Assembly (NCBI GenBank): GCA_947632175.1 | Contig: CANROC010000001.1 | Location: 62,001-126,000, forward strand | Length of the DNA stretch: 64,000 bases | Direction of reading: 5' to 3' | From: an uncultured Oscillospiraceae bacterium | GTDB taxonomy: Bacteria > Bacillota > Clostridia > Oscillospirales > Oscillospiraceae | Program-made: the position numbers and the translations under genes | Shown: positions 3,060-62,285 of the stretch, piece after piece | How positions within the stretch are numbered: position 1 is the first letter of the stretch | Layout: each line of letters opens with the position of its first letter | The notes under the pieces: model-generated | What the model saw: the letters and a program-made list of their open reading frames with translations, nothing else | Told to the model about the DNA's origin: nothing | Database searches by the model: none

Positions 3060-4115
3060 CGCCGCAGCGCGCCACGGTCGGACACATGGGTCCGCCCCTA
3101 CGGGGAATGTGGGAGGGTATCCCATTCAACCGACGCCGGAAATCATCGCAACGCGGGCCGCCAAGAGTGGCGGCCCCTACGGCGTAAATGGAGCGGATTC
3201 CCTTTATCGGAACCGGTCTGTCATCCCACGTTCGCTTCCCCCCTGCCCCCCTCCTACGAGGAGGGGGCTCCGAGACGGAGGCGGGCGCGAATTATTGGAA
3301 CCGTTCCGACAACGCACCTCGTAGGGGCCGCCACTCTTGGCGGCCCGCGTTGCGTCTATTGACCCGTCCCAATCACCGCCGTAGGGGTCGCCGTCCCCGG
3401 CGACCCGCCTATCGTCAATTGACACGTTTCGTACACCGCCGTACGGGCCGCCGCCCACGGCGGCCCTTTCCCCCGGATGACCGACATGTACCGTTTTATC
3501 GGAACCGCCCCCGTCCCACAACGTGCCACGGGCGGACACATGGGTCCGCCCCTACGGGGGATGTGGGAGGGTATGCCATTCAACCAACATTGGAAATCAT
3601 CGCAACGCGGGTCGCCGGGGACGGCGACCCCTACGGCATAATTTGGAGTGGTCCGATTTTCCGGAACCGTTGCGACAACGCACCTTGTAGGGGCCGCCAC
3701 TCTTGGCGGCCCGCACGCAACACATTCGGTTTCCCGGAAGCATCCGTTACGCTCCACGGGCTCGAATACCCCGGCCCTGCGGGGCCACCCCTTTTTCCGA
3801 AAAAGGGGTCAAGGGGAATAAGGTTGCGGCGCTTCGCGCCGCCTTTATAAAAAATTGCGCCGCTATGCGGCGCAAACCTTTTTGACCCCCTTTCCGGGAA
3901 AGGGGGGTAGGGGGGATTCGAGCCCCCGTCCTTCGTCCCCCGTCCCCGCCGCGCGGGTAAATCCAAGACTGCGCCTCAGGCGCAAACCTTTCAAAAAGCC
4001 CCCTCCTCGTAGGAGGGGGGCAGGGGGGCAGCGAACGTGGGATGACGGTGCTGGTATCGATACGCTCGATCCCTCAGTCGCTTCGCGACAGATTTCTTTA
4101 CGAAAGGGAGCCTTT
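3060..4115 (+). repeat. Mosaic hairpin array 1
   Basis: Non-coding array between the surface-protein promoter and the 3' end of the glycosyltransferase gene. It contains, in order, perfect inverted-repeat modules joined by conserved linkers: D (GGGCGGAC/GTCCGCCC), A (GGGCCGCCA/TGGCGGCCC), E (CCCCCTCCT/AGGAGGGGG), reversed A, B (GGGTCGCCG/CGGCGACCC), C (GGGCCGCCG/CGGCGGCCC), D, B, A, then a terminator-like T (ACCCCTTTTTC/GAAAAAGGGGT), F (TTGCGCCGC/GCGGCGCAA), E and a CTCCCTTT/AAAGGGAG hairpin near 4090. The linker word TTTATCGGAACCG recurs. Reading frames here repeat peptides such as GRQEWRPL on several strands and are not genes. Confidence 0.9.
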
Positions 4116-4147
4116 CAGATCGGCCAAAACTTATGTACCCCCCCACA

Positions 4148-5287
4148 TCAGTTAACATAACTTCCCGCCGCGTCGCGGCAGGCCTGGAGGAGGGCGTCGC
4201 ATATCCGGTCGGCGCCGAAGGTCTCCACGGTCAGCGCACGGATGCGCGCCGGGTCGTACCGGGCGGCTGTTTCCGTCATCGTCAGCATGGCCTGCGCCAG
4301 CGCTTGGGCGTCGCCTGTGGGCACCAGCAGGCCGCGCTCCTCGGTCACGATATCCAGCGGCCCGCCGCAGCGGGTGCTGATGACCGGCTTGCCGCAGGCT
4401 CCCGCCTCGTTGAGCACGCAGGAGAGCGTCTCGGTGTGGGAGGAGCAGACGAAGCAGTCGCATCCGTTGATGAAATCCGGCGCCTCCTCCCGGGGCACCG
4501 CCCCCACCAGCCGGCAGCTGTCCTCTAGGCCGTGGCTCCGGATGCGCTCCAGGAGGGCCTCGCGCTGGCCGCCGACGCCGGCGATATCCAGCCGCACCGG
4601 GCGGCGGGCGCGCTCCGTCACCAGGGCGAACGCGTCGATCAGCAGGTCATAGCCCTTGAGCGGCCGCAGCTGGCCCATGGCGCGGAAGATGAAAGCGTCC
4701 CCCGCTTGCGCCTTCCGCGGCGCGGGGACGAACCGCCGGTCGTCCACCGGATCGGGGATGACGCGCGTGTCGCCATAGGGCCGCATGACCTCCGCCAGCG
4801 CCCGGCTCACGCCGGCGTTCACCGCCGCCGCCTCCATGACCGCCGCCAGCCGGCGGCGGGTGGGGCTGTCGGGCGGCTCGGTCATCACCGCCGAAGAGTG
4901 CTCCATAAAAAAGAGCGGCAGTCCCTCCCGCCGGCAAAGCGCCAGCGCCTCATACCCCTGGAGGGACGAGCGCAGATTCACCACATCGGGCCGTCCCCAC
5001 TGGGCGGTCAGCTGCCGGTAAACGCGCTCCAGCATACGGGTCCGCTGCCAGCAGCGCCCCGCCTCCCAACGCGGGGTCAGATTGAGGCGCAGGTACCGCC
5101 AGGTGGGCACGCCGCCCACCGTCTCGCAGGTCAGCCCGTGGCCGCCGCGCCTGCCGTTGACCTCGGTATAGGCCACGGCCACGTCAACGCCGCGCGCCGC
5201 CAGCGCCTCGGCCTGTTCCCGGAAAAAAGAGCCCAGCAGCGGCGCGGCCGGCGTGCCGTACCAGGAGGGGATCATCAGGACCTTCAT
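4148..5287 (-). CDS. Glycosyltransferase family 4
   Basis: 379-residue GT-B-fold glycosyltransferase. The N-terminal domain starts MKVLMIPSWYGTP, with GSFFREQAEALAARG typical of the acceptor side. The C-terminal nucleotide-sugar domain holds the GT4 E-x7-E motif (ETLSCVLNE, about residue 290) followed by CGKPVIST and a GGPLDIV loop. Length is normal for the family. It likely transfers a sugar from a nucleotide donor onto a cell-envelope glycan or lipid carrier in the cytoplasm; neither donor nor acceptor can be read from sequence. RBS AAGGTGA precedes ATG at 5287. It is monocistronic, with its own consensus promoter and a repeat array at its 3' end. Confidence 0.9.
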   Translation of the reverse strand: MKVLMIPSWYGTPAAPLLGSFFREQAEALAARGVDVAVAYTEVNGRRGGHGLTCETVGGVPTWRYLRLNLTPRWEAGRCWQRTRMLERVYRQLTAQWGRPDVVNLRSSLQGYEALALCRREGLPLFFMEHSSAVMTEPPDSPTRRRLAAVMEAAAVNAGVSRALAEVMRPYGDTRVIPDPVDDRRFVPAPRKAQAGDAFIFRAMGQLRPLKGYDLLIDAFALVTERARRPVRLDIAGVGGQREALLERIRSHGLEDSCRLVGAVPREEAPDFINGCDCFVCSSHTETLSCVLNEAGACGKPVISTRCGGPLDIVTEERGLLVPTGDAQALAQAMLTMTETAARYDPARIRALTVETFGADRICDALLQACRDAAGSYVN

Positions 5288-5323
5288 GCGTTCTTCACCT
5301 TGCCTTTCCCGTTTGACCGGTCC

Positions 5324-5352
5324 ATTATATGGTAAACCGCCCGCTTTGTCAA
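5324..5352 (-). promoter_or_regulatory. Perfect-consensus SigA promoter of the glycosyltransferase
   Basis: TTGACA (5352-5347), 17-bp spacer, TATAAT (5329-5324): both hexamers match the consensus exactly. It lies in the short gap after the stop codon of the upstream GTPase-NYN gene. Confidence 0.85.
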
Positions 5353-5364
5353 GCCGCGGGCCGT

Positions 5365-9200: not shown

Positions 9201-10168
9201 GCGGGGGCCCCTACGGCGTAATTGGAACAGGTTCGATTTGCCGGAACCGCTCTCACATCCCACGCTCGCTTCCCCCCTGCCCCCCTCCTACGAGGAGGGG
9301 GCTCCGGGACGGGGGCGGGCGCGATTTATCGGAACCGTTGCAACAACTTACCTTGTAGGGGCCGCCACTCTTGGCGGCCCGCCTTTCGTCTATTGACACG
9401 TCCCAAACACCGCCGTAGGGGTCGCCGTCCCCGGCGACCCGCCCATCGTCTATCGACACGTCCCGAACACCGCCGTACGGGCCGCCGCCCACGGCGGCCC
9501 ATGCCCCCGTTGACCGGGATGTACCGTTTTATCGGACCCGCCCCCGTCCCACCACGCGCCACGGGCGGACACACGGGTCCGCCCCTACGGGGGATGTGGG
9601 AGGTTATCCCATTCAACCGACATGGGAGGTCATCGGAACGCGGGCCGCCAGGAGTGGCGGCCCCTACGGCGTAATTGGGGCGGATTTGTTTTGCCGGAAC
9701 CGCTCTCACATCCCACGCTCGCTTCCCCCCCGCCCCCCTCCTACGAGGAGGGGGCTCCGAGACGGGGGCAAGTGCGATTTTTCGAACCAGTTCCGTCAAC
9801 GCACCTTGTAGGGGCCGCCACTCCTGGCGGCCCGCACGCAACACATTCGGTTTCCCGGAAGCATCCGTTACGCCCCACGGGCTCGAATACCCCGCCGCCG
9901 CGGCGGCACCCCTTTTTCCGAAAAAGGGGTCGGGGGGAACAAGGTTGCGGCGCTTCGCGCCGCCTTTTAAAAAATTGCGCCGCAAAGCGGCGCAAACCTT
10001 TTTGGCCCCCTTTGGGGCAAAGGGGGCAAGGGGGATTCGAGCCCCCGTCCTTCGTCCCCCGTCCCCGCCGCGGCGGGCAATCCAAGAATGCGCCGCAGGC
10101 GCAAACCTTTTAAAAAGCCCCCTCCTCGTAGGAGGGGGGCAGGGGGGCAGCGAACGTGGGACGACAGA
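9201..10168 (+). repeat. Mosaic hairpin array 2
   Basis: Fills the convergent junction between the TM2 gene and the serpin gene. Module order is the same as in array 1: partial A, E, reversed A, B, C, D, A, E, reversed A, a (CCGCCG)(CGGCGG) hairpin, T, F, and a final E. Linkers such as CGGAACCGCTCTCACATCCC and GCGTTGCG are shared with the other arrays. No gene is supported. Confidence 0.9.
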
Positions 10169-14048: not shown

Positions 14049-14830
14049 GCCTTTCAGTCACGGCCTGTGGCCGTGCCAGCTCCCCCAGGGGGGGAGCTTA
14101 ATAACCTCCCCCCTGGGGGAGGTGCCGAGCGAAGCGAGGCGGAAGGGTCCCCCGGCGGCGAAAAGGTTTGCGGCTTCGCCGCATTCTTATATTCCCCCCA
14201 CCCACCCCCGCCGCCGTGCGGAACCACCCCTGCCGCTTCGCGGCTGTCCCCGACCTTGGAGGGGCAATGTAATCGGGGGCAGGCGCGGGTTATCGGGACC
14301 GTTCCGTCACGCAACGTACCACGGGCGGACACATGGGTCCGCCCCTACGGGGAATAGGGAATGTTATCCCATTCAACCAACGCCGGAAATCATCGAAACG
14401 CGGGCCGCCAGGAGTGGCGGCCCCTACGGCGTAATTGGGGCGGATTCGGTTTATCTGAACCGCTCTCATGTCCAACGTTCGCTTCCCCCCTGCCCCCCTC
14501 CTACGAGGAGGGGGCTCCGAGACGGGGGGCGGGCGCGATTTATCGGAACCGTTGCGACAACTTACCTTGTAGGGGCCGCCACTCTTGGCGGCCCGCACGT
14601 AGCACATTCAGTTTTTCGAAAGCCCCAGTTACGCTCCACGGGCTCGAATACCCCGGCCCTGCGGGGCCACCCCTTTTTCCGAAAAAGGGGTAAGGAGAAT
14701 AAGGTTGCGGCGCTGCGCGCCGCCTTTATAAAAAATTGCGCCGCGAAGCGGCGCAACCCTTTTTCGCCCCCTCCTCGTAGGAGGGGGGGGCAGGGGGGGA
14801 AGCGAAGGTGGGGAGACAGGGCGGTATCGG
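14049..14830 (+). repeat. Mosaic hairpin array 3
   Basis: Fills the convergent gdhA/nrdG junction. It starts with module J (a CACGGCC/GGCCGTG hairpin, then AGCTCCCCC/GGGGGAGCT and CCTCCCCC/GGGGGAGG), then a GCGGCTTCGCCGC hairpin. After that come D, A, E, reversed A, T, F and E in the usual order. No gene is supported. Confidence 0.88.
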
Positions 14831-21548: not shown

Positions 21549-22680
21549 GTGGCGGCGGGAAAAGGTTTGCGGCTTCGCCGCATTCTTGGATTTCCCCCGC
21601 CGCCGCGCGTCACTGGCTTGCGTTATCCGCCGTAGGGGTCGCCGTCTCGGCGACCCGCCTCACGACAATCGACCCGTCCCGAACACCGCCGTACGGGCCG
21701 CCGCCCACGGCGGCCCATGGCACCCGATAATCACCAATTTCCGTTTTATCGGAACCGTTCCCGTCCCACAACGTGCCACGGGCGGACACATGGGTCCGCC
21801 CCTACGGGGAATGTGGAAAGTCATCCCATTCAACCAACATGGGTGGTCATCGCAACGCGGGTCGCCGAGGACGGCGACCCCTACGGCGTAAATGGAACTG
21901 TTTTGATTTGTCGGAACCGCTCTGTCATCCAACGCTCGCTGCCCCCCTGCCCCCCTCCTACGAGGAGGGGGCACCGAGACGGGGGCGGTTGCGATTTTTC
22001 GAACCAGTTCCGATAACGCACCTTTTTTGCCCCTCCCTCCGGGAGGGGTGCCCAAGCGAAGCGATGGGTAAGGTGGGGGCGTCTATTTCACCGGCTTGCG
22101 TTATCCGCCGTAGGGGTCGCCGTCTCGGCGACCCGCCCCCCGACAACCGGTATGTACCGTTTATCGGAACCGCCCCCGTCCCGCCACGTGCCACGGGCGG
22201 ACACATGGGTCCGCCCATACGGGGAATGTGGAAAGGTATCCCATTCAACCGACACCGGAGGTCATCGAAACGCGGGTCGCCCGGGAGGGCGACCCCTACG
22301 GCGTTCATCGGAGGCAATCCGAACCCTGCAACGCGGGCCGCCAGGAGTGGCGGCCCCTACAGGGCGCGTTGTCCGAACGGTTTCGATAAAACGAATCCGC
22401 CCCAATTATGTTGTAGGGGCCGCCACTCTTGGCGGCCCGCACGCAGTAAGTTCCGTTTACCGACAGCCCCAGTTACGCTCAACGGGCTCGAATACCCCGC
22501 CGCCGCGGCGGCACCCCTTTTTCCGAAAAAGGGGTCAAGGGGAATAAGGTTGCGGCGCTTCGCGCCGCCGTTATAAAGAATGCGCCGCACAGCGGCGCAA
22601 AACCTTTTAAAAGCCCCCTCCTCGTAGGAGGGGGGCAGGGGGGAAGCGAGCGTGGGTTGATAAAACGGTTCCGAAAAAAG
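21549..22680 (+). repeat. Mosaic hairpin array 4
   Basis: Fills the convergent trkH/asnB junction. It begins with a GCGGCTTCGCCGC hairpin, then B, C, D, B, E, an extra CCTCCCTCCGGGAGGG hairpin (about 22032), B, D, B (variant GGGTCGCCC/GGGCGACCC), A, reversed A, T, F and E. The B variant at about 22275 has a matched change in both arms. No gene is supported. Confidence 0.88.
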
Positions 22681-28369: not shown

Positions 28370-28732
28370 TCATTTTTTCAGATTGACGCCGATGACGTGG
28401 ACGTTGACCTCCCGGACGGTGAAGCCCGTGGCGGACTCCACGGCGGAGGCCACGGCCTCCTGGACCTTCCGGCCTACCTTGTTCACGGACACGCCCAGCT
28501 TCACGGTGAGCCAGACGTCCAGCTTCAGCTTCTCGCCCTCCACCGTGAGCTTCACGCCCTTGGCCAGGTTCTTCTTCCCCAAAAGCTCGCCCAGGTCGAG
28601 CCCGGCGGACAGCGCCGCCACGCCCTCCGTCTCCAGCGCCGCCGAAGCGGCGATGACGGCGATGACCTCCTCCGAGATGTTGACGCTCCCCTTTTCGTCG
28701 GGGTGGGTGATGTAATCCCTGTTTTCGCCCAT
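28370..28732 (-). CDS. Asp23/Gls24 family envelope stress protein
   Basis: 120 residues matching Asp23/Gls24: GSVNISEEVIAVIAASAALETEGVAAL at the N-terminus and VQEAVASAVESATGFTVREVNVHVIGV at the end. The family includes membrane-associated alkaline-shock or cell-envelope proteins. ATG at 28732 follows CGGAGGCTGAA; a longer frame to 28777 contains no better site. It is encoded just upstream of nusB, the usual clostridial order after spoIIIAH, but here a repeat array separates it from the spoIIIA operon. Confidence 0.9.
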   Translation of the reverse strand: MGENRDYITHPDEKGSVNISEEVIAVIAASAALETEGVAALSAGLDLGELLGKKNLAKGVKLTVEGEKLKLDVWLTVKLGVSVNKVGRKVQEAVASAVESATGFTVREVNVHVIGVNLKK

Positions 28733-28783
28733 TTCAGCCTCCGATTCTCCGTGCCAACGGCACCTTTTTTTGCACATGGGACC

Positions 28784-28812
28784 ATTTTAGCACAGGTCGG
28801 GGAAAAAATAAA
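28784..28812 (-). promoter_or_regulatory. Possible promoter of the asp23-nusB operon
   Basis: TTTATT (28812-28807), 17-bp spacer, TAAAAT (28789-28784). The -35 element is weak. A short GTGCC/GGCAC hairpin lies in the leader. Confidence 0.45.
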
Positions 28813-28854
28813 GGAAAAGTTCTGGGTTTCGAAAAAAACTGAGGTCATGCCCCT

Positions 28855-30112
28855 CAGCCCCTCCCTCCGGGAGGGGGCTTTTAAAAGGTTTTGCGCCGCT
28901 TTGCGGCGCAATTTTTTAAAAGGCGGCGCATAGCGCCGCAACCTTATTCCCCCGACCCCTTTTTCGGAAAAAGGGGTGCCGCCGCGGCGGCGGGGTATTC
29001 GAGCCCGTGGGGCGTCGCTGGGGCTGCCGGTAATCGAGACTTACTGCGTGCGGGCCGCCAAGAGTGGCGGCCCCTACAGGGTGCGTTGTCGCAACGGTTC
29101 CGATAAAACGAATACGCCCAAATTATGCCGTAGGGGCCGCCACTCCTGGCGGCCCGCGTTGCAGGTTTCGGATTGCCCCCGATAAACGCCGTAGGGGTCG
29201 CCGTCCCCGGCGACCCGCGTTGCGATGATTTCCAATGTTGGTTGAATGGAATAACATTCCACATCCCCCGTAGGGGCGGACCCATGTGTCCGCCCGTGGC
29301 ACGGTGCGGGATGGGACGGTTTCGATAAAACGGTACATGTCAGTCAACGGAAGTATGGGCCGCCGTGGGCGGCGGCCCGTACGGCGTTGATTGGGACGTG
29401 TCAATTGTCGATGGGCGGGTCGCCGGGGACGGCGACCCCTACGGCGGTGTTCGGAACGGGTCAATAGACGCAACGCGGGCCGCCAAGAGTGGCGGCCCCT
29501 ACAAGGTACGTTGACAGACCGGTTCCGATAAATCGCGCCCGCCCCCCGTCTCGGAGCCCCCTCCTCGTAGGAGGGGGGCAGGGGGGCAGCGAGCGTTGGA
29601 TGACAGAGCGGTTCCGATAAAACGAATCCGCCCAAATTACGCCGTAGGGGCCGCCACTCCTGACGGCCCGCGTTGCGATGACCACCAATATTGGTTGAAT
29701 GGGATAACATTCCCTACTCCCCGTAGGGGCGGACCCATGTGTCCGCCCGTGGCTACGTTGCGGGACGGGAACGGATCCGATAAAACGGTACATGTCGGTC
29801 AACGAAAAAGGGCCGCTGTGGGCAGCGGCCCGTACGGCGTTGGTCGGGGACGGGTCGATAGACGCAACGCGGGCCGCCAAGAGTGGCGGCCCCTACAGGG
29901 CGCGTTGTCGGAACGGTTCCGGTAAATCGCACCGCCCTCGACGCGTTAGCCCCTCCTACGGAGGGGACAGCCGCGAAGCGGCAGGGGTGGTGACGCGGCG
30001 GCGGGGGCGGGCGGGTGGGGAATATAAAGAATGCGGCGCAAGCCGCAACCTTTTGCCCGCCGCCGCGCGGACCCTTACGGCGCTGCGCGCCACCTCCCCC
30101 GAGGGGGAGGTA
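28855..30112 (-). repeat. Mosaic hairpin array 5 (reverse polarity)
   Basis: Lies between spoIIIAH (3' end) and asp23 (5' end), in the opposite polarity to arrays 1-4. Reading left to right: a CCTCCCTCCGGGAGGG hairpin, reversed F, reversed T, A, reversed A, B, D, C, B, A, E, reversed A, D, C variant, A, then a CTCCTACGGAGG hairpin, GCGGC hairpins and a CCTCCCCC/GGGGGAGG hairpin. The C copy at about 29811 reads CCGCTG/CAGCGG, a matched change in both arms. Confidence 0.88.
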
Positions 30113-30114
30113 AA

Positions 30115-30220
30115 GGGCGGGTTCTAAACCCGCCCCTGTGAAAAATACTTATAAATACTAAAAAGTACTTGACAAATCACTGATTTTGTGGTATAATACG
30201 CTTAGTCGGGGAAAAACGGT
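30115..30220 (+). promoter_or_regulatory. Boundary hairpin plus consensus promoter aimed into spoIIIAH, copy 1
   Basis: Hairpin GGGCGGGTT-CTA-AACCCGCCC (30115-30135), an AT-rich tract, then TTGACA (30169-30174)-17-TATAAT (30192-30197) on the plus strand. Transcription would run into the 3' end of the spoIIIA operon in antisense. About 60 bases match the element at 57438-57500 closely. Confidence 0.75.
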
Positions 30221-30844
30221 TTATTTGATCTCCGATACTGTCAGCATGTTGGCGGGGAGGCCGGTTTCGGCGATGACGATGTCGGTGATCTTGGCCACGG
30301 CGGCCTGGTCGAGGCCGCCCTCGGCGGCGACGGTGACGCTGACGCGCTCGTCGGTGAGGTAGACCACGCAGTCGATGAAGCCCTTGGCTTTTATTTTGCT
30401 CTCGATCTCCGCCTCCTTCACCGCCCGGTCGGCAAGCTGGGTCATGGCTTTCAACGCCCCGTCCACCGTCTCCTGGCTGGCTCCGTCCGCGCCGGCCACG
30501 GCGGAGAGGGTGGCGGCGGCCTCGTCACGGGCCTCGCCGCGCTTTAGGCGCACGTCGGCGAAATACTCGGCCAGGAGCTGGGCGGCGCTGGCGGAAGCGT
30601 CGGCGTCGTCCTGCGTATCCTTCCCCGCCACGGTGTAGTAGAGCCCCGCGCCGCCCTCGTCCACCGTCCCCCCGGCGGGCTTGGTGGCGGCGGGACCTGT
30701 TTCGGCGGGGTCGGTGACCTTCTCCTTGTCCCCGGAGACGGACGCCTCCTCCACCTGCTTGTTGTACGACCAGTTGAGGTACACGGCGGCGCAGATGAAC
30801 AGCATGACGGTGAGGATCACCGCGTTTTTCTTGATGGATTTCAT
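30221..30844 (-). CDS. spoIIIAH: Stage III sporulation protein AH
   Basis: 207 residues: a short basic N-terminus, one membrane helix (about 8-25), an acidic and Thr/Pro-rich linker, and a C-terminal YscJ/FliF-like ring-building domain (about 150-207, GFIDCVVYLTDERVSVTVAA). It is the mother-cell half of the SpoIIQ-SpoIIIAH channel across the forespore septum. The start is ATG at 30844, behind GGAGGAGGCAACT. It is the last gene of the spoIIIA operon; sigma-E control is known for the family. Confidence 0.93.
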   Translation of the reverse strand: MKSIKKNAVILTVMLFICAAVYLNWSYNKQVEEASVSGDKEKVTDPAETGPAATKPAGGTVDEGGAGLYYTVAGKDTQDDADASASAAQLLAEYFADVRLKRGEARDEAAATLSAVAGADGASQETVDGALKAMTQLADRAVKEAEIESKIKAKGFIDCVVYLTDERVSVTVAAEGGLDQAAVAKITDIVIAETGLPANMLTVSEIK

Positions 30845-30860
30845 AGTTGCCTCCTCCATT

Positions 30861-31388
30861 TTAAGGGGTCGCCCCCATTTTCACGATCTTGATGGCGTCG
30901 CTTCCCAGGCCCGTGGCGGCCCGGACGGCCTCGGTGAGCTCCAGACGCACCTGGGCGCTCCCGGCCCCCTCGGCGCAGATGACGGCCCCCCGGTACGCCG
31001 GGTAGCGGTAGGAGATCTCCACCTCGCCGGTCTTGCCGCTGCCCTGGGAGACGGTGACGGTGTCCGTCTCCTCCTCCCAGCGCTCCCCGTCCCGGCTGAC
31101 GCCGGAATCCCGGGCCAGGACGCGCTCGCCGTCGTCGCCCAGGGTCAAGAGGACCTCCACACGGCCCGCGCCTTCGATCTTGGACAAAATAGCCTCCAGC
31201 CGCGCCTCCAGCGCCTCCGGGTCCTCCCGGAGGGCGGGCGTCTCCGGCTGTTCCTGCGCCGTCTCCTCGTTATGCCCCGTGGGGATGAGGAGGATGACGA
31301 GGCCGGCCAGGAGGATAAAGAGCACCGCCCGCCGGGCCTTCAACGCCTCCAGAAGCTTATTGAGCTTTTCCTTTACGCGCTTATCCAT
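30861..31388 (-). CDS. spoIIIAG: Stage III sporulation protein AG
   Basis: 175 residues with a membrane helix at about 21-37 (AVLFILLAGLVILLIP) and an extracytoplasmic ring domain (GAGRVEVLLTLGDDGERVLARD, then EISYRYPAYRGAVICAEGA). SpoIIIAG builds the large ring of the feeding-tube apparatus. ATG at 31388 overlaps the spoIIIAF stop codon; the frame continuing to 31535 is an artefact of the overlapping gene. Confidence 0.93.
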   Translation of the reverse strand: MDKRVKEKLNKLLEALKARRAVLFILLAGLVILLIPTGHNEETAQEQPETPALREDPEALEARLEAILSKIEGAGRVEVLLTLGDDGERVLARDSGVSRDGERWEEETDTVTVSQGSGKTGEVEISYRYPAYRGAVICAEGAGSAQVRLELTEAVRAATGLGSDAIKIVKMGATP

Positions 31389-31860
31389 CGGTCGTTCTCC
31401 AGGTCTGCCTCTCCGGGGGGATTCCCAGCTCCGAGGCGATGACGGCGGCCAGGGCGGCGTCGGGCTCCGCGCCAATCTGGCACGATTCCGGCACCCAGAA
31501 CCCCTCCCCGCTCCACGCGGCGGTGACGGACACATCCGTGAGCGTAAGGCCCAAACCCGCCGCTTTGTCCCATATATATGCTTCGCACTTGTCTTCTATG
31601 ATCGATCTTGTCTGATTCCTCCCCTCCTCCTGGGCGCGGCGGGCGAAGTCCCGCGCCTCCTGGGTAAAGCCCTCCAGGTCGCCCAGGGGGTCCTCGGCGG
31701 AGGGCAGGCGCGCCCCCATCAGCGCCCCCAGGAGGGCAAAGCCGCACACCGCGGCAATGACCTTCTTCCCCATCCCCTCCGGCGCCAGCGCCCGGACGAG
31801 GGCGCAGACCAGGGACGTGCCCACAATGGCCAAAAGCCAGGACCGCAAGGCGGAAAGCAT
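31381..31860 (-). CDS. spoIIIAF: Stage III sporulation protein AF
   Basis: 159 residues with two N-terminal membrane helices (about 5-25 and 33-52) and a soluble ring-building domain containing KAAGLGLTLTDVSVTAAW. It is part of the SpoIIIA complex in the mother-cell membrane. AAAGGAGGG precedes the ATG. Confidence 0.9.
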   Translation of the reverse strand: MLSALRSWLLAIVGTSLVCALVRALAPEGMGKKVIAAVCGFALLGALMGARLPSAEDPLGDLEGFTQEARDFARRAQEEGRNQTRSIIEDKCEAYIWDKAAGLGLTLTDVSVTAAWSGEGFWVPESCQIGAEPDAALAAVIASELGIPPERQTWRTTDG

Positions 31861-31873
31861 TTAGACCCTCCTT

Positions 31874-32962: not shown

Positions 32963-33345
32963 AGAAGCTCCCTCACCGTCTCAAAGACGCCGCGCATCAC
33001 GGGAAGCGCCGCCCAGAGGGCCGCCGCCGCGCCGGCAAGCTCGGCGGCCGAGGCCGCCGCGCCCATGCCGGAGTCCCGGCAGAGGTCCGCCGTCAGCCTG
33101 GAGGCCACGGCCAGGCCCAGGGCCTTGACGAGGGCCGTCAGGGCCGTCTCGGACACGCCGGCGGCGCCGGCCACCTCCTCCACGAAGGCCAGCACCTCCC
33201 CGGCGGCGCCCAGGGCCGAGCCCAGCACCACCAGCGCCGCCGCCAGGGCGATGAGCAGGGCCATGGCCGGGGAGTCGCGCTTCAAAACCCCCGCGAACAG
33301 CGCCGCCGGCACGCAGACCGCGGCGATCTTCATGAGGACCCCCAT
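32959..33345 (-). CDS. spoIIIAD: Stage III sporulation protein AD
   Basis: 128 residues, almost wholly hydrophobic: about four membrane helices with DLCRDSGMGAAASAAELAG, the conserved SpoIIIAD loop. ATG at 33345 gives MGVLMKIAAV, aligning with the usual MDIxQI start, though the ribosome site is weak; translation is probably coupled to spoIIIAC, whose stop codon is one base upstream. Confidence 0.92.
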   Translation of the reverse strand: MGVLMKIAAVCVPAALFAGVLKRDSPAMALLIALAAALVVLGSALGAAGEVLAFVEEVAGAAGVSETALTALVKALGLAVASRLTADLCRDSGMGAAASAAELAGAAAALWAALPVMRGVFETVRELL

Positions 33346-33346
33346 A

Positions 33347-33541
33347 TCAAAGCCCGAAGAGGGACTTGATGAGGTCGAAAAGTCCCGATATCTCCCGCAC
33401 CAGCACCAGCAGGACCACCACAAGCCCCGCGATGGTGGTCATCAGCGCCTGCTCGTCCCGCCCCGACCGGCCCAGGAGGAGGTTTAGCACCGCCACCAGG
33501 ATCCCCACGGCGGCGATTTTGAAAATAAGGTCAACGTTCAT
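33347..33541 (-). CDS. spoIIIAC: Stage III sporulation protein AC
   Basis: 64 residues with two membrane helices, starting MNVDLIFKIAAVGILVAVLN and containing the RSGRDEQALMTT loop typical of SpoIIIAC. GAGGG provides the ribosome site. A longer in-frame reading to 33943 comes from the overlapping spoIIIAB region and is not real. Confidence 0.93.
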   Translation of the reverse strand: MNVDLIFKIAAVGILVAVLNLLLGRSGRDEQALMTTIAGLVVVLLVLVREISGLFDLIKSLFGL

Positions 33542-33564
33542 TTGTTTACCCTCACAGGCCTTCC

Positions 33565-34083
33565 TTAGAGTAAAATCACCGCCGCGAAGAGGCCGGAGAC
33601 GAGGCCGAAGGCGGCGTGGAGCTTGCCGTCCCGGGCCGACTCCTCCTCGGCGCGCTTCAAAAAGACCTCCAGCCGCCGGCGCACACGGCCGATGGCCTCG
33701 GCCTGCTCCCTCACGTCGTAGCGGCCCAGACACAGGCCCAGCTCCGAAAGGCACTGGACCTCCTCCGGCCGCAGGCGCAGCTCCCGGGACTCCCCCACCG
33801 CGCCGTGCCAGATGGCGTAAAAGGAGCACCGGCCTATGGCGCTCATGCGCCCGGCGGCCCGGCGGTAAAAACCCCGGACCGCCTCCGGCGCGGACCTCGA
33901 GAGCATGTCCAGCACGTCGGCCATGGGCGTCAGGCGGGAACAAATTTCGTTCTCCATAAGCTCCAAAGAGACGATGAGCCCCTCCAGCGCCGCCGCCCGC
34001 CGCCGGAGATTAAGCGCCCCCAGCGCCCCCATGGTCCCGGCGGCGGTCACCACCAGCGCCGCCCCCAAAAGGCGTATCACCAT
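33565..34083 (-). CDS. spoIIIAB: Stage III sporulation protein AB
   Basis: 172 residues. N-terminal membrane helix (about 2-24), then a helical GspF/PilC-like domain (AALEGLIVSLELMENEICSR, LGRYDVREQAEAI), and a C-terminal hydrophobic tail (HAAFGLVSGLFAAVILL). It resembles an inner-membrane platform of secretion systems, fitting the SpoIIIA channel. The start overlaps the spoIIIAA stop. Confidence 0.92.
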   Translation of the reverse strand: MVIRLLGAALVVTAAGTMGALGALNLRRRAAALEGLIVSLELMENEICSRLTPMADVLDMLSRSAPEAVRGFYRRAAGRMSAIGRCSFYAIWHGAVGESRELRLRPEEVQCLSELGLCLGRYDVREQAEAIGRVRRRLEVFLKRAEEESARDGKLHAAFGLVSGLFAAVILL

Positions 34084-34985
34084 GTCCGTTCCCCCTTTGT
34101 AAGTTCATAGTCCCGCCGGCCCCGGGCCTCGCGGATGACGATGAGGTTTTCAAAATGCCCGAGAATGTCCCGGTAGAGCGGGCGGCTCTTGAGGTCGGAT
34201 ACCGTGGCGGCGTGGGCGGTGGCCATAAGCTCCACGCCGCAATTGGCGGCGTATTCGATGGCCCGGACGTCCTCGGCGGCGGTGATCTCGTCCAGGGCGA
34301 TGACCTGAGGGTTCATGGTCCGCAGGAGCATCATCACCGCCTCCGCCTTGGGGCAGGCGTCCAGCACGTCCGTCCGGGGCCCCACGTCCAGCTCCGGCGC
34401 GCCGGCCCGCAGGGCGGCGATCTCCCCTCGCTCGTCGCACAGCCCCACCCGGACCCCCGGGCCCGCGGCGCTCCCGCCGGAGATCCTTCGCACCAGCTCC
34501 CGCAACAGCGTGGTCTTGCCCCCGCCGGGCGGGGAGACGATGAGGGTGGACCGGGGGATCCCCGCCCGGTAGAGGGCGGGCAGGAGCCCGTCGGCGATGC
34601 CCCGGACCTCCCGGGCGATGCGGATGCAGGCGGAGGACAGATGGGAAAAGCCGGAGATTTCGCCGTCGGCCAGGATGACCGACCCGCACAGCCCCACCCG
34701 GACCCCGCCCCGGCAGGGGATGAACCCGCGCCGCACCGTCTCCCGGGCGGCGTGGGCCGACGCGCCGGTGGCGATCTCCACCAGCAGCCGCAGGTCCTCC
34801 CCGGTCACCCGGTCCCCGCCCAGCGGCACCTCCCCCTCCGGCAGCACCGCCGCCACACACGAACCCGCCCGGACCCGCAGCTCCGTCGCCGACCGCTTGT
34901 CCGCCGCCGGCAGGCGCAGCGCCCGCTCCCGCAGTCTCCCCGGCAGCAGCCCCGCCGCCGCCTCAAACCTCTCCGCCTCGTCCAC
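34077..34985 (-). CDS. spoIIIAA: Stage III sporulation protein AA, ATPase
   Basis: 302 residues from GTG at 34985, placed after GGGAGGGGTCGGC, giving a length close to known SpoIIIAA proteins. It is a secretion-type ATPase: Walker A SPPGGGKTTLLRELV (about 161-175), Walker B VIALDEI (about 240), and ATAHAATVSDLKSRP after it. It powers assembly or transport of the SpoIIIA complex in the mother cell. The open frame continues to 35732 through repeat DNA, so automatic annotation could wrongly extend the protein to about 550 residues. Confidence 0.94.
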   Translation of the reverse strand: MDEAERFEAAAGLLPGRLRERALRLPAADKRSATELRVRAGSCVAAVLPEGEVPLGGDRVTGEDLRLLVEIATGASAHAARETVRRGFIPCRGGVRVGLCGSVILADGEISGFSHLSSACIRIAREVRGIADGLLPALYRAGIPRSTLIVSPPGGGKTTLLRELVRRISGGSAAGPGVRVGLCDERGEIAALRAGAPELDVGPRTDVLDACPKAEAVMMLLRTMNPQVIALDEITAAEDVRAIEYAANCGVELMATAHAATVSDLKSRPLYRDILGHFENLIVIREARGRRDYELTKGERTW

Positions 34986-35060
34986 GCCGACCCCTCCCGC
35001 TTTTGTTGACTGGTCCACTCTATGCGGGGTTGTCCGGGGGTAGAACGGGGAAGGGAGAAT

Positions 35061-35084
35061 AAAAAAACGCCCCCGAAGGGGGCG
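35061..35084 (-). terminator. Terminator upstream of spoIIIAA
   Basis: CGCCCCC and GGGGGCG, 4-nt loop, T7 tract in the minus direction. It stops leftward transcripts before the spoIIIA operon, so that operon must start within the 75 bp before GTG 34985. A CATAGAGT sequence there is a weak sigma-E -10 candidate. Confidence 0.8.
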
Positions 35085-35086
35085 GG

Positions 35087-36290
35087 AGACGGGCGGGTTT
35101 AGAACCCCGCCCCTACAGTTTTGAATTGTGTTCAATCTACGACGTAGTGGCCGCCGTCCAGGTTGGCCCCCATTGCAAGGTTCGGATTGCCCCCGATAAA
35201 CGCCGTAGGGGCCGCCGTCCCCGGCGACCCGCGTTGCGATGATTTCCGGCGTTGGTTGAAATGGGATAACTTTCCCTATTCCCCGTAGGGGCGGACCCAT
35301 GTGTCCGCCCGTGGTACGTTCCATGATGGGGACGGTCCCGATTAAACGGTACGAGCCGGTTGTCGGGGGCATGGGCCGCTGTGGGCAGCGGCCCGTACGG
35401 CGGTGGTCGGGACGTGTCAATTGTCGATGGGCGGGTCGCCGGGGACGGCGACCCCTACGGCGGTGATTGGGACGGGTCAATAGACGAAAGGCGGGCCGCC
35501 AGGAGTGGCGGCCCCTACATGGTGTGTTGTCGGAACGGTTCCAATAATTCGCGCCCGTCTCCGTCCCAGGGCCCCCTCCTCGTAGGAGGGGGGCAGGGGG
35601 GGCAGCGAGCGTGGGATGACAGAGCGGTTCCGATAAAACGAATCCGCCCCAATTACGCCGTAGGGGCCGCCACTCTTGGCGGCCCGCGTTGCGATGATTT
35701 CCGGCGTTGGTTGAAATGGGATTACATTTCATATTTCCCGTAGGGGCGGACCCATGTGTCCGCCCGTGCGCGGTTGCGGGACGGGGGCGGTTTCGATAAA
35801 ACGGAAAATGGCCGTTATCGGAAGGTGTGGGCCGCCGTGGGCGGCGGCCCGTACGGCGTTGATTTTGGGGCGAGTCAATAGACGAGGGGCGGGTCGCCGG
35901 GGACGGCGACCCCTACGGCGGTGGTCGGTGCGGGTCAATAGACGAAAGGCGGGCCGCCAGGAGTGGCGGCCCCTACATGGTGTGTTGTCGGAACGGTTCC
36001 AATAATTCGCGCCCGTCTCCGTCCCAGGGCCCCCTCCTCGTAGGAGGGGGGCAGGGGGGCAGCGAGCGTTGGATGACAGAGCGGTTTCGGCAAATCAAAA
36101 CAGCTCTATTTACACCGTAGGGGCCGCCGTGGGCGGCGGCCCGTACGGCGGTGGTCGGGACGTGTCAATTGTCGATAGGCGGGTCGCCGAGGACGGCGAC
36201 CCCTACGGCGGATATCGCAAACTGACATAATAGACGCCCCCACCCTGCCCATCGCTGCGCTCGGGCACCCCTCCCGGAGGGAGGGGCTTT
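35087..36290 (-). repeat. Mosaic hairpin array 6 (reverse polarity)
   Basis: Lies between spoIIIAA (5' side) and ribU (3' side). It starts with boundary hairpin I (GGCGGGTT/AACCCCGCC, 35091-35113), then B hybrid, D, C variant (CCGCTG/CAGCGG, about 35370), B, A, E, reversed A, D, C, B, A, E, a hybrid of the A flank and C core (about 36118), B, and a CCTCCCGGAGGGAGG hairpin. The segment at about 35485-35610 is repeated almost exactly at 35940-36070. No gene is supported. Confidence 0.88.
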
Positions 36291-36332
36291 GGAGCGGCGG
36301 ACAGCGTAGGCCTTTTGTTCCGCCAGCCCGGG

Positions 36333-37058
36333 TCAGGCGTCAAGGCGGACGAGGCGTTTGACGCGTTTATAGAGGGGGAGGGTGACGAGGGAGACGAGGA
36401 CGGCTTTGATGAGGTTGAAGGGGGCGACGCACAGGGCGGCCATGGTATAGACGGATGTTACGTGGGAGTTGACGGCCTGGGCCATGGAGATGATGGTCTC
36501 CAGGGGGACGCCGTAGAGCGTGGCGAAGGCGGGGATGAGGTAGACGGCGTTGAAGAGGCTCCCGAAGGCCGTCATGGCAAGGCCGCCGGTCACGAGGGCG
36601 ACGACGGCGCGCTTGAAGGTCCGTTTGGTGTTGTAGATGACGGAGGCCGGCAGGACCATGGAGCATCCCACGGCGAAGTTGGCGAAGTCCCCCACGAAGG
36701 CGGTGGTGGTGCCCTTCAAAAGGAGCTTGAGCATGATCTTCAGAAACTCGCAGACGACCCCCGCCGTGGGGCCCATGGAGAAGGCGCAGATGAGCACCGG
36801 GATCTCGGAGAAGTCCAGCTTATAAAAGTCGGGCGCTATAAAGACCAGGGGGATCTCGAGGTACATGAGTACCCCCGCCAGCGCCGCGAACATGGCCATG
36901 TAGGCCACGTAACGGGCCGGGGTGAGCTTCCGGCGGTCCTTCATGAGGAACCGCTCGCACAGCCACGCCACAAGCGCAAGGCCGGCGAACACGCCTACGA
37001 TCACCAGCACGAAGGAGAGGTTCTCCCGGAAATCGGTCAACAGCTTTTTGAGGTTCAT
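36333..37058 (-). CDS. ribU: Riboflavin ECF transporter S component
   Basis: 241 residues, six hydrophobic helices of an ECF S component. Core: PARYVAYMAMFAALAGVLMYLEIP, FYKLDFSEIPVLICAFSMGP, then a C-terminal helix pair. The LDFSEIP segment is typical of RibU. It binds flavin in the membrane and is energised by a shared EcfAAT module not in this window. ATG at 37058 follows AAGGAG. The FMN riboswitch upstream confirms riboflavin as the substrate. Confidence 0.93.
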   Translation of the reverse strand: MNLKKLLTDFRENLSFVLVIVGVFAGLALVAWLCERFLMKDRRKLTPARYVAYMAMFAALAGVLMYLEIPLVFIAPDFYKLDFSEIPVLICAFSMGPTAGVVCEFLKIMLKLLLKGTTTAFVGDFANFAVGCSMVLPASVIYNTKRTFKRAVVALVTGGLAMTAFGSLFNAVYLIPAFATLYGVPLETIISMAQAVNSHVTSVYTMAALCVAPFNLIKAVLVSLVTLPLYKRVKRLVRLDA

Positions 37059-37108: not shown

Positions 37109-37145
37109 CTTCATTCGCGCGAAAGGTCGCGGCAAAAGCCGCCAT

Positions 37146-37249
37146 CTTCTCCCATCCAGACTGTACTGTCGGTACCGGAATCGCACCGGTTCGGCGCTCA
37201 TGCGCTCGCGGACTTTACCGCCGGTCGGGATTTTCACCCTGCCCTGAAG
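37146..37249 (-). promoter_or_regulatory. FMN riboswitch (RFN element)
   Basis: All RFN landmarks are present in order on the minus strand: CTTCAGGGCAGGGTG, AAATCCCGACCGGCGGT, AAAGTCCGCGA, CCGGTGCGATTCCGGTACCGAC, AGTCTGGATGGGAGAAG. It binds FMN and turns off the downstream riboflavin transporter. Confidence 0.97.
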
Positions 37250-37274
37250 ACGAATCGTATCAAGTTGTGTCCCT

Positions 37275-41335: not shown

Positions 41336-41389
41336 TAAAGACGGGAAACGGGCGGGCCTATGTGCCCGCCCGCGTTGTTCGCAGCCGCT

Positions 41390-42200
41390 CCGTTAACCCA
41401 CGTTCGCTTCCCCCCTGCCCCCCTCCTACGAGGAGGGGGCGAAAAAAGGTTGCGCCGCTTTGCGGCGCAATTTTTTATAAAGGCGGCGCGAAGCGCCGCA
41501 ACCTTATTCCCCCGACCCCTTTTTCGGAAAAAGGGGTGCCGCCGCAGCGGCGGGGTATTCGAGCCCGTGGGGCGTACGGATGCTTCCGGTAAACGAAACT
41601 TACTGCGTGCGGGCCGCCAGGAGTAGCGGCCCCTACGGCATAATTTGGCCGGATTCGTTTTATCGAAACCGTTCGGACAACGCGCCCTGTAGGGGCCGCC
41701 ACTCTTGGCGGCCCGCGTTTCGATGACCTCCGGTGTCGGTTGAATTGGATAACCCTCCATATTCCCCGTAGGGGCGGACCCATGTGTCCGCCCGTGGCAC
41801 GTTGCGGGACAGAAACGGGTTCGATAAAACGGTAAATGGCGGTTATCGGGGGCATGGGCCGCCGTGGGCGGCGGCCCGTACGGCGGTGTTCGGGGCGGGT
41901 CGATTGTCGATGGGCGGGTCGCCGGGCTGCGCCCGCAGGCACGTTTCGTAGCGCAACCGCCGCGCAGCGGCGGCTCTTGGCGCGGAGATGACGGCGACCC
42001 CTACGGCGGATAACGCAAGCCGGCAAAATTGACGCCCCCACCCTGCCCGTCGCTGCGCTCGGGCACCCCTCCCGGAGGGAGGGGCAAAAAAGGTGCGTTG
42101 ACGGAACTGGTTCCAATTATTCGTACCCGCCCCCGTCCCGGGCCCCCTCCTCGCAGGAGGGGGGTAGGGGGGAAGCGAGCGTTGCGGTTTTCGGGCCGTT
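41390..42200 (-). repeat. Mosaic hairpin array 7 (reverse polarity), with a loop insertion
   Basis: Fills the convergent wecB/42220 junction. Left to right: E, reversed F, reversed T, a CCGCCG(CA)GCGGCGG hairpin, A (one mismatch), reversed A, D, C, then a B hairpin whose arms (GGGTCGCCG at 41918, CGGCGACCC ending at 42000) are separated by about 75 nt that contain their own GCCGCCGC/GCGGCGGC hairpin. A CCTCCCGGAGGGAGG hairpin and E complete it. Confidence 0.88.
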
Positions 42201-50039: not shown

Positions 50040-50705
50040 CGGTTTCGCCGCATTCTTCGATTTCCCCAGGCGGCCCGTTTCGCAAGGTCCCCAAACTTGC
50101 CGCAGCGTTTTTCCGTTTTATCGAAACCGGTCCGTCACGCAACGTGCCACGGGCGGACACATGGCTCCGCCCCTACGGGGGATATGGGAGGTTATACCAT
50201 TCAACCGACATGGGAGGTCATCGCAACGCGGGCCGCCAGGAGTGGCGGCCCCTACGGCGTAATTGGAACGGGTTCGATTTGTCGAAACCGCTCTGTCATC
50301 CAACGCTCGCTTCCCCCCTGCCCCCCTCCTACGAGGAGGGGGCCCTGAGACGGAGACGGGCGCGAATTTTCGAAACGTTTCCCATACCTTACCCTGTAGG
50401 GGCCGCCACTCCTGGCGGCCCGCACGCAGCACATCCGGTTTCTCGAAAGCGTCCGTTACGCTCCACGGGCTCGAATACCCCGCCGCCGCCGCCGCGGCGG
50501 CACCCCTTTTTCCGAAAAAGGGGGCAGGGGGATTCGAGCCCCCTTCCTTCGTCCCCCCGTCCCCGCCGCGCGGGCAAATCAAAGCCTGCGCCGCAGGCGC
50601 AACCTTTTTCGCCCCCTCCTCGTAGGAGGGGGGGCAGGGGGGCAGCGAGCGTTGGACATGAGAGCGGTCCCGATGAACGCACCCACCCCCTGCCCCCTCC
50701 CAAAG
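50040..50705 (+). repeat. Mosaic hairpin array 8
   Basis: Fills the convergent SLH/rqcH junction. Contains D (one mismatch: GGGCGGAC/GCTCCGCCC), A, E, reversed A, a long (CCG)n(CGG)n hairpin near 50480, the A/T-rich T hairpin, GCGCC hairpins and E. It has the same polarity as arrays 1-4. Confidence 0.85.
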
Positions 50706-57410: not shown

Positions 57411-57437
57411 TTTTGTCCGTTTTCTTCCGATGTGCGT

Positions 57438-57521: not shown

Positions 57522-57524
57522 GTC

Positions 57525-57790
57525 CCCCCGTCCCCGCCGCGCGGGCAAATCAAAGAATGCGCCGCAAAGCGGCGCAAACCTTTTTCGCCCCCTCCTCGTA
57601 GGAGGGGGGCAGGGGGGCAGCGAGCGTTGGGACAGCACGGCCCCGGCAAATCGAACCGGCTCCATTTACGCCGTACGGGCCGCCACTCCTGGCGGCCCGC
57701 GTTCCGATAACCTCCCATGTCGGTTAAATGGGATGACTTTCCCCATCCCCCGTAGGGGCGGACCCATGTGTCCGCCCGTGCCCACGTTGC
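57525..57790 (-). repeat. Mosaic hairpin array 9
   Basis: Short array between the ABC operon and the PHP gene: GCGCCGC hairpins of the F type, E, reversed A flanked on one side by C-like GTAC sequence, and D, in the reverse polarity. Confidence 0.85.
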
Positions 57791-57821
57791 GGAACCGTAC
57801 CCGCCCCGCCTCCTTTTGACC

Positions 57822-57849
57822 TTGCATTTTTCCCACAACGTGGTATACT
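57822..57849 (+). promoter_or_regulatory. SigA promoter of the PHP gene
   Basis: TTGCAT (57822-57827), 16-bp spacer, TATACT (57844-57849), about 24 bp before the start codon. Confidence 0.7.
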
Positions 57850-57873
57850 TTAGAAAGAACAGGAGGCGAGAGG

Positions 57874-58689: not shown

Positions 58690-58702
58690 GGAGGAATTTT
58701 CC

Positions 58703-61223: not shown

Positions 61224-61224
61224 C

Positions 61225-61968
61225 ATGGAAAACGAAGCCCTTTTGAAAAACCGCCTCACGGAGCTTGCAAGCCGCGCCTGGGGACGGGGGACCTGGGTCT
61301 TTTCGGAGTTTCTGACCCTGGCCGAGCAGGATACGCTCCTGCGCCTGCGGCCGGAGTGCCCCTTCACCCTCTGGGGCGGCCTTCCCTCCTCGGAGCGGAA
61401 GGTGGCGTGCTTCGGCTCGGAGGCGCTTTGCGGCTACATAGAGCCGCCGCCCCTTGCGTGCCTGCGCATCGAGCCGGTGCAGCAGAAATTCGCCGACGCC
61501 CTGAGCCACCGGGACTTTCTCGGCTCCCTCATGGCCCTGGGCATCCGCCGGGAGCTTCTGGGGGACATCGAGATCGCGGACAACGTGGGGTACCTCTTCT
61601 GCCTTGACTCCATCGCCCCTTACATCGCGGAGAACCTGGCCTCCGTCCGGCGCACCACGGTGCGCTGTGTCCCCTCCGCCCCGCCGGAAAAGCTGTCCTC
61701 TCCCCCGCCGGTCACGGAGCTCGTCGTCGCCTCGGAGCGCTTGGACGCCGCCGTGGCGGCGGTCTACCGCCTCTCCCGCGCCCAGGCCCAGGAGCTCATC
61801 GAAAAGGAGCAGGTCTTCATCTCCGGCCGCCTCGCCCTCTCCCCCTCCGCCGCCCTCCCGGAGGGCGCCCTCGTCTCCGTCCGCCACCACGGCCGTTTCC
61901 AATACGAGGGCATCTCCCGCTCAACCAAAAAAGGCCGCCTCCGCATCCTCGTCCGCATCTGGGCGTAA
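61225..61968 (+). CDS. ylmH: YlmH-like S4-domain RNA-binding protein
   Basis: 247 residues. N-terminal YlmH domain (AEQDTLLRL, FADALSHRDFLGSLMALGIRRELLGDI), then a C-terminal S4 domain (VVASERLDAAVAAVYRLSRAQAQELIEKEQVFISGRL). In Bacillus, YlmH joins the ribosome quality-control pathway with RqcH, which is also in this window. ATG follows the Gx stop by one base. Confidence 0.88.
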   Translation: MENEALLKNRLTELASRAWGRGTWVFSEFLTLAEQDTLLRLRPECPFTLWGGLPSSERKVACFGSEALCGYIEPPPLACLRIEPVQQKFADALSHRDFLGSLMALGIRRELLGDIEIADNVGYLFCLDSIAPYIAENLASVRRTTVRCVPSAPPEKLSSPPPVTELVVASERLDAAVAAVYRLSRAQAQELIEKEQVFISGRLALSPSAALPEGALVSVRHHGRFQYEGISRSTKKGRLRILVRIWA

Positions 61969-61989
61969 ACGGAAAGCGCGGATAATAAA

Positions 61990-62285
61990 ATTTGCGCCGC
62001 TCCGCGGCGCATCCTTTTTAAGCCCCCTCCTCGTAGGAGGGGGGCAGGGGGGGAAGCGAGCGTTGGATGACTGCGCAGTTATCGAAACCTTCGATCCCTC
62101 AGTCTCGCTTCGCTCGACAGCTCCCTTTACGAAAGGGAGCCAACGCAACCCGGAAGCTTTCCGAAAAAGGGAAGGCGACCCTTCCGGCGCTTCGCGCCAC
62201 CTCCCCCAGGGGGGAGGTTATTAAGCTCCCCCCTGGGGGAGCTGGCACGGCCGCAGGCCGTGACTGAGGGGTTCCCCCGTCCGGG
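61990..62285 (+). repeat. Mosaic hairpin array 10
   Basis: Fills the convergent ylmH/sigF junction: TGCGCCGC/GCGGCGCA hairpin, E, CTCCCTTT/AAAGGGAG hairpin (as at 4090), GGCGCTTCGCGCC, CCTCCCCC/GGGGGAGG, AGCTCCCCC/GGGGGAGCT and CACGGCC/GGCCGTG. The last four are module J, as at the start of array 3 in the other direction. Confidence 0.85.

Follow-up and report, generated by a model that had tools for sequence, protein, structure and literature searches.

Ordered hairpin arrays in an uncultured Oscillospiraceae genome resemble clusters of REP elements and occur in a genus with RAYT-like genes

The 64,000-nucleotide stretch analysed here (the window), part of contig C1 of an uncultured Oscillospiraceae genome, carries long arrays of GC-rich hairpins that recur in a similar order between one gene and the next, and the question raised by this locus is what such arrays are and how they came to be spread. 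Module clustering gave ten of them, spanning 3076-62043, the last two being short (4 and 2 modules). They are built from hairpins designated A, B, C, D, E, F and T, all recurrent as perfect copies, together with a linker, TTTATCGGAACCG (example at 3203-3215, + strand), which matched the window 34 times with at most two mismatches, whereas 100 shuffled sequences gave 1.14 matches on average and never more than 4. The exact linker was found 96 times in the whole genome (G000; C1, C43 and so on are its contigs, and G001-G048 denote relatives), and the reversed control pattern was not found at all. Arrays of both polarities are present and many are incomplete. An initial annotation, made from the letters of the window, had described at least ten arrays assembled from a few recurring GC-rich hairpins and conserved linkers in both polarities, and this description holds. 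We consider it very probable that the arrays are clusters of repetitive extragenic palindromes (REPs) similar to bacterial interspersed mosaic elements (BIMEs), spread now or formerly by a REP-associated tyrosine transposase (RAYT, or TnpAREP) of this genus.

What defines a GTAG REP is a palindrome that ends in GTAG (Di Nocera et al. 2013, PMC3733652). We scored the seven modules, allowing up to 4 mismatches, in 426,223 bases of G000, comprising the whole of C1 (311,287 bases, window included) and stretches of C4, C8, C14, C16 and C17 that were picked for containing the linker, and obtained 452 modules. Alignment of their flanks revealed a GTAG foot on one side only of the palindrome in modules A (89/91 copies), B (77/81) and D (63/72); in module C the foot is GTAC, again one-sided, in 46/58 copies. 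The foot sequence was not part of the pattern used to find the copies. Stems are perfect in 88/91 A, 71/81 B, 44/58 C and 64/72 D copies, so that A is the best kept, while by identity over the whole copy D (54/72) is ahead of A (47/91), the loop of A having two common forms. Typical copies in the first array are A, GTAG followed by GGGCCGCCA(CTCT)TGGCGGCCC (3321-3346, +); B, GTAG followed by GGGTCGCCG(TCCC)CGGCGACCC (3381-3406, +); C, GTAC followed by GGGCCGCCG(CCCA)CGGCGGCCC (3441-3466, +); and D, GGGCGGAC(ACATGG)GTCCGCCC followed by CTAC (3530-3555, -). Modules A, B and D, with GTAG, and C, with GTAC, thus have the anatomy of REP elements. In the same alignment of the G000 sample, GTAG is not conserved at the base of the stem in E (example at 3247-3267, -), T (3787-3809, +, in the tail) or F (3855-3875, in the tail, a terminator-like hairpin with an A-run before it and a T-run after it). 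E, T, F and the linkers are not REPs and need a separate account.

The genome encodes a RAYT-like protein. A search with PF01797 (Y1_Tnp) had missed the gene, and the resulting view that G000 has no RAYT was discarded when a protein query from a relative recovered an open reading frame (ORF) of 306 amino acids at C43:887-1807. It matches the NCBIfam model REP_Tyr_transpos (NF047646) with an E value of 1.8e-15 and is flanked by genes for serine dehydratase alpha on one side and gyrase/topoisomerase A on the other. With this one query it is the only such gene in G000, and it has the same neighbours in nine genomes, in the manner of a single-copy, housekeeping-like gene. Its reading frame contains five tandem forward copies of A (four with GTAG, one with GTTG) and one reverse A after the HuH motif, and a further reverse A lies about 60 bp upstream of the ORF; cognate REPs at and within a RAYT gene are the arrangement known as a REPtron. 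In six aligned relatives both histidines of the HuH motif and the tyrosine column are invariant, the motifs being DH[VI]H (6/6) and Y[IV]xxN[AP]. The linker and two further exact copies of A also lie on contig C43. The serine dehydratase encoded there shares 93% identity with its counterpart in the sister species G015, close to the 91% of SpoIIIAA in the window; judging by all this, C43 very likely comes from the same organism as the window. Two other sets of genes were considered and set aside. The PF01797 search in G000 gave only two short partial IS200-type ORFs (L011 4830-5450 and L009 1423-1698), and an IS200/IS605 element as the source of the arrays was rejected, no intact IS200-type TnpA being associated with them. 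Y1-type proteins of 272-287 amino acids occur in G012, G024, G046 and G048, and the two genes examined have no footed hairpins inside.

A 181-base query consisting of linker, A, B and C matched 12 of 40 relatives, all among the 25 that belong to the genus of the window, and none of 15 genomes from other families of the order. The exact A pattern, run against one genome per GTDB species, a set from which the window genome's own records may be excluded, gave 28 stretches in four assemblies, all of them uncultured Oscillospiraceae (rabbit-type 'Lapin' bins). In a genus set of 34 genomes, G000 included, the serine dehydratase was matched in 26 and, in the loci covered, was seen next to the topoisomerase gene in 18, and in nine of these 18 a RAYT-like gene lies between the two flanks (G000, G048, G045, G001, G024, G002, G012, G019 and G018). 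All nine have a footed palindrome in the gene region, and eight have an inverted pair, one member on each side of the HuH segment; G002 has one perfect copy. The feet are GTAG or GTAC in seven genomes and GTAA in G045. The two members of a pair share one type and the type varies by species: A in G000, B in G048, C with a GTAC foot in G001 and G019, GGGCCGATG in G045, G024 and G018, and GGGCCGCC(TCTCTT) in G012, the copy in G002 being of this same type. An ATG-started ORF runs across both REP sites in six of the nine; G018 and G024 have stop-free frames of 230 and 238 amino acids, and the gene in G002 is apparently broken. In G015 the first 18 nt of the gene are kept at the locus and the rest is lost. 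G008, G009, G011 and G042 also gave RAYT-like matches, none of which was seen at this locus.

Copy numbers largely follow the resident type. Module A is present in 182 copies in G000, 10 in G015, 12 in G017, 8 in G045 and 2 in G022, and is absent from the other 29 of the 34 genomes; it is far commoner in the one examined genome whose RAYT bears A. Exact copies of B number 144, 48 and 6, and those of C 62, 42 and 24, in G000, G015 and G017, respectively. At least 48 A/B/C-type copies occur in 8/9 genomes with a RAYT at the locus, and at most two in 7/9 without, a split with a one-sided Fisher p of 0.008 that ignores ancestry and uses a threshold picked afterwards. G018 has a RAYT at the locus and no A/B/C copy, yet it contains 32 copies of its own RAYT's GGGCCGATG type; among the 17 listed, the loop matches that of the in-gene REP in 16 and is the reverse complement of it in one. 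Of 87 copies in G024, 82 share the loop of the REP in its own RAYT gene, two of them lying inside that gene.

Several results weigh against the spread of the arrays by a RAYT, and we gather them here. The C43 ORF scores 57.1 bits, under the curated cut-off of 80 for the RAYT model, and is also under the Pfam cut-off; a different group of Y1 proteins in the genus, lacking such hairpins, scores 56.9 bits, and the model alone therefore does not single out the C43 gene. PDB sequence searches returned no sequence match among solved structures for the RAYT-like protein. The closest relatives, G015 and G017, have 161 and 70 A/B/C-type copies and no RAYT at the locus, and G013 has 17 copies and no RAYT that we could find. 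Conversely, RAYT-like matches occur in G008, G009, G011 and G042, four genomes devoid of A/B/C copies (G011 has 20 copies of GGGCCGATG). The RAYT of G048 bears B, and with 26 B, 34 C and 57 GGGCCGATG copies in that genome the resident type is not the commonest. All these counts are raw, uncorrected for genome size or assembly breaks. The 3.54-Mb G000 bin may itself hold foreign contigs or large islands: 20-kb samples of C3, C7, C11 and C15 (L164, L165, L167 and L169) have GC contents of 0.444, 0.475, 0.563 and 0.551 and no modules, compared with 0.62-0.65 in other samples. Since E, T, F and the linkers have no REP foot, the action of a RAYT alone does not explain the units. Finally, we infer mobilisation of the arrays, no excision or insertion having been seen.

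Where the arrays lie bears on what else might maintain them. Genes were called with a purpose-built hexamer model, dropping those that scored below 25, and some spurious short calls may remain. Only 9 of the 452 modules fall within predicted genes, although 78% of the sampled sequence is coding, which upholds the earlier description of the arrays as intergenic and refutes equal occurrence inside genes. Counting an array where at least two modules have a gene on each side, we obtained 50 arrays, of which 28 lie in convergent, 20 in co-directional and 2 in divergent gaps. Convergent gaps make up 28/50 of those with arrays and 17/134 of those without (p 7e-9), and divergent gaps 2/50 and 42/134 (p 2e-5). 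High copy number, a position mainly outside genes, and a preference for convergent and co-directional over divergent gaps are all characteristic of REPs.

Such a bias would also be expected if the arrays were kept mainly as terminators or 3' stabilisers of host messenger RNA and copied by recombination, with the RAYT as a bystander, and of the alternatives this one survives best, although we regard it as unlikely. Besides the 28 of 50 arrays in convergent gaps, it can draw on the A-runs and T-runs that flank F (the F copy at 28891 was called terminator-like) and on the 13 terminator-like sites, some of them outside arrays, in window positions 28700-36400, compared with 6.1 (standard deviation 2.7) in shuffles. 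Tail modules are moreover retained at some sites shared with the sister species, for example C1:203752-204798 and 123968-124297. The same placement, however, would result if a mobile element avoided promoters, and the number of A copies differs 15-18 fold between G000 and its closest relatives, tracking the RAYT type. At the gap 28777-30221, which contains the array at 28891-29926, the roughly 1444 bp of the window correspond to about 426 bp in G015; in 12 of 17 relatives' loci, 67-222 bp (distances between alignment ends) suffices, and four others have one or both flanks missing or partial. We compared C1 with two G015 contigs (333 kb), here dropping genes that scored below 40. The comparison covered 135 gene pairs that are neighbours in either genome alike; footed REP stems were present in both species at 11 of them, in G000 only at 7, in G015 only at 1 and in neither at 116. 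One of the G000-only sites holds a lone A- A+ pair that is absent in G015.

The arrays may nevertheless affect their host, and the likeliest place is the 3' end of transcripts, through termination at the T-F tail and through RNA hairpins. Because F is terminator-like and terminator-like sites exceed those in shuffles, an effect on transcript ends is plausible from the sequence.

The initial annotation had proposed a fixed and shared module order, and here we compared the order with shuffled arrays. Of the 50 arrays, 43 (with 390 modules) could be oriented and 7 were dropped; in the oriented arrays the mutual information between neighbouring modules, taken with their orientation, was 1.90 bits, whereas 2000 within-array shuffles gave 0.35 bits (standard deviation 0.034) and never more than 0.49, which refutes a random order. 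Polarity assigned from the T tail and from D agreed in 25/25 arrays with both. The usual string, in which + and - give the module orientation, is (A+ B+ C+ D- B-/A- E-)n A+ T+ F- E+, with a complete unit of about 455 bp. Its commonest steps are C+ to D- (32/35), B+ to C+ (23/35) and A+ to T+ (22/38), with T+ to F- (18/25) and F- to E+ (18/18) in the tail; D- is followed by B- in 32/59, by A- in 17/59 and by something else in 10/59 cases. The order is therefore far above chance, but it is a strong tendency and not a rule, many arrays being partial. Several gaps are nearly constant (interquartile range 0-1 bp), namely 38 bp for A-B and B-C, 57 bp for same-strand B-D and A-D, and 74 bp for A-T, and others are looser (E-F 10-14, B+D- 57-62). 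Same-strand D-D distances within arrays (n = 18) are 453-456 bp in five cases and 415-480 bp in nine. REPs in both orientations, joined by linkers and in tandem, are what characterises a BIME, and the arrays show this arrangement.

The preferred order and tight spacings also resemble block copying, and blocks that include linkers and the T-F-E tail are repeated at dozens of different sites, as they would be if the unit of about 455 bp, or the whole array, were a miniature inverted-repeat transposable element (MITE) or a composite element moved by another transposase, the GTAG feet being incidental. We think this improbable, as the ends of the arrays vary (they are not uniform within the window by module clustering), the feet are conserved, the same palindromes occur inside RAYT genes, and a lone A- A+ pair occupies a site that is empty in the sister species. 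BIMEs bind gyrase, integration host factor (IHF) or DNA polymerase I. A role at the DNA level, with the arrays as sites for gyrase, an IHF-like or a nucleoid protein as proposed for enteric BIMEs, would by analogy fit the targeting of E. coli REPs by gyrase (PMC3733652) and the gyrase/topoisomerase A gene adjoining the RAYT gene, but that gene neighbourhood is the same in relatives without the RAYT and without A/B/C copies, and we give this role little chance.

Returning to spread by a RAYT, the D class may go with a second lineage of these transposases. In G015 the D slot is filled by GGGCGGGTT(CCA)AACCCGCCC, with similar linkers, and a second RAYT-like gene, on contig C15 of G018, contains an in-frame inverted pair of this same stem, which is what suggests the connection. 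On G011 contig C43 (L095) we observed a broken-up RAYT of the second lineage, whose C-terminal part is matched repeatedly in a row with GGGCGGGTT-type REPs between the matches. At and near the RAYT-like ORF on G008 contig C87 (L102) there is a different footed palindrome, GGAGCGATG(TGGG)CATCGCTCC followed by CTAC, possibly a further REP class to judge from its form. A footed hairpin resembling D also lies near the partial IS200-type ORF at L011 4830-5450.

We propose that a RAYT would cut and join single-stranded cognate REPs, the A/B/C class being handled by the enzyme encoded at the serine dehydratase-gyrA/parC locus and the D class by that of the second lineage. Shifts in the REP type of the RAYT over time would leave successive REP types behind as layers. 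Tandem duplication, together with the copying of multi-REP blocks with their linkers and T-F-E tail, could then give rise to the ordered units, and REPs would settle mostly away from divergent gaps. Processing of footed REPs as single strands by a RAYT is known in vitro for the E. coli enzyme (PMC8266576), and the same paper, in its introduction, calls REP dissemination not elucidated. A more specific version, to which we give low weight and which is offered tentatively, is that the RAYT gene carries its own substrate as the in-frame inverted REP pair around the HuH motif, that a change in the type of this pair, made by both members at once, shifts the active REP class of the genome and leaves the earlier ones as layers, and that blocks bounded by outward-facing active REPs (A+ ... 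A-) move as composites with older REPs, linkers and terminators. If this were true, the grammar of the arrays would be a record of successive REP specificities.

The arrays share with GTAG REPs and BIMEs, as far as these are described in the part of PMC3733652 considered, a footed palindrome, high copy number, inverted and tandem clusters, a position in convergent and co-directional gaps, and several types per genome. They differ in that four REP types, three other hairpins and linkers make up a unit of preferred order; according to the same text most REPs are unassociated with other repeats. The phyla listed there with GTAG repeats are Proteobacteria, Cyanobacteria, Chloroflexi and the Planctomycetes-Verrucomicrobia-Chlamydiae (PVC) group and not Firmicutes, and the words Firmicutes and Clostridi are absent from this text in the portion considered. 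Inverted pairs of REPs at fixed spacing recall the REP doublets called REPINs (five are 106-107 bp apart among the G018 matches listed); unlike REPINs, the pairs in G000 are embedded in larger units with other REP types. REPs inside the transposase gene are known for TnpAREP subclass 2.4 (Bertels group 4; Quentin et al. 2018, PMC6006769), and the in-gene REPs are therefore not new in kind. In the part of that paper considered, however, subclass 2.4 has the motifs NH[IFV]H and YIxNNP, where the proteins of this genus have DH[VI]H and Y[IV]xxN[AP], and, unlike subclass 2.4, the genes of this genus usually have two inverted REPs, one on each side of the HuH motif.

We found no literature on such repeats in Oscillospiraceae or Clostridia among open-access papers screened by listing and opening lines of the abstract, the species lists in the supplements and figures of PMC6006769 being outside this scope. 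Two Geobacillus genome papers tabulate 'RayT' (COG1943) transposase genes, and the gene name is thus already in print for Firmicutes. As far as these searches reach, three things are new: the occurrence of GTAG REPs together with RAYTs in this genus of Clostridia; a unit that combines four REP types and three other hairpins in a preferred order; and inverted in-gene pairs whose copies agree and whose type differs between species. The initial annotation had seen in the arrays a larger and more ordered clostridial analogue of REP/BIME elements, and the feet, the intergenic 3' bias and a RAYT-like gene bearing A go past analogy. It had also stated that it knew of no described grammar of this kind. 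The ordered multi-type unit is indeed undescribed in the open-access literature searched, but its modules match a known class of mobile DNA, REP-RAYT, and to call it a wholly new kind of grammar would be too strong. These results extend the REP-RAYT world to an Oscillospiraceae genus, in which arrays sit at contig ends, and the genus offers a natural series: the position of the gene is conserved, the REPs within it vary from species to species, some close relatives lack it, and copy numbers for the most part go along with this.

The individual arrays of the window, with l denoting the linker, are as follows. Five of + polarity are D- A- l- E- l- A+ B+ C+ l- D- B- l- A+ T+ F+ E+ (3076-4019), l- E- l- A+ B+ C+ l- D- A- l- E- A+ T+ F- E+ (9237-10138), l- D- A- l- E- l- A+ T+ F- E+ (14289-14787), C+ l- D- B- l- E- l+ l- D- B- A- l+ A+ T+ F- E+ l+ (21695-22678) and l- D- A- l- E- A+ T+ E+ l+ (50117-50677). 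The opposite polarity is seen in F+ T- A- l+ A+ B+ D+ l+ C- B- A- l+ E+ l+ A+ D+ l+ C- A- l+ (28891-29926), in B+ D+ l+ C- B- A- l+ E+ l+ A+ D+ l+ C- B- A- l+ E+ C- B- (35209-36202), which contains two units of about 455 bp, and in D+ E- F+ T- A- l- A+ D+ l+ C- E+ (41350-42163). The short array F- E+ A+ D+ (57557-57777) and the two-module cluster F+ E+ (61992-62043) have no assigned polarity. Contig C1 starts within an array (L011 1-30), and copy numbers from the G000 assembly may therefore be too low. The density of modules by contig (39 of the 96 linkers are on C1) was set aside, as the contig samples differ in GC content (0.444 to 0.647). A perfect promoter-like site, TTGACA-17-TATAAT with TG before the second hexamer, lies at 30169-30197 (+) beside the array at 28891-29926. 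A scan of the window with Rfam at gathering scores returned a single family, the flavin mononucleotide (FMN) riboswitch RF00050, at 37140-37255 (-) with 120 bits.

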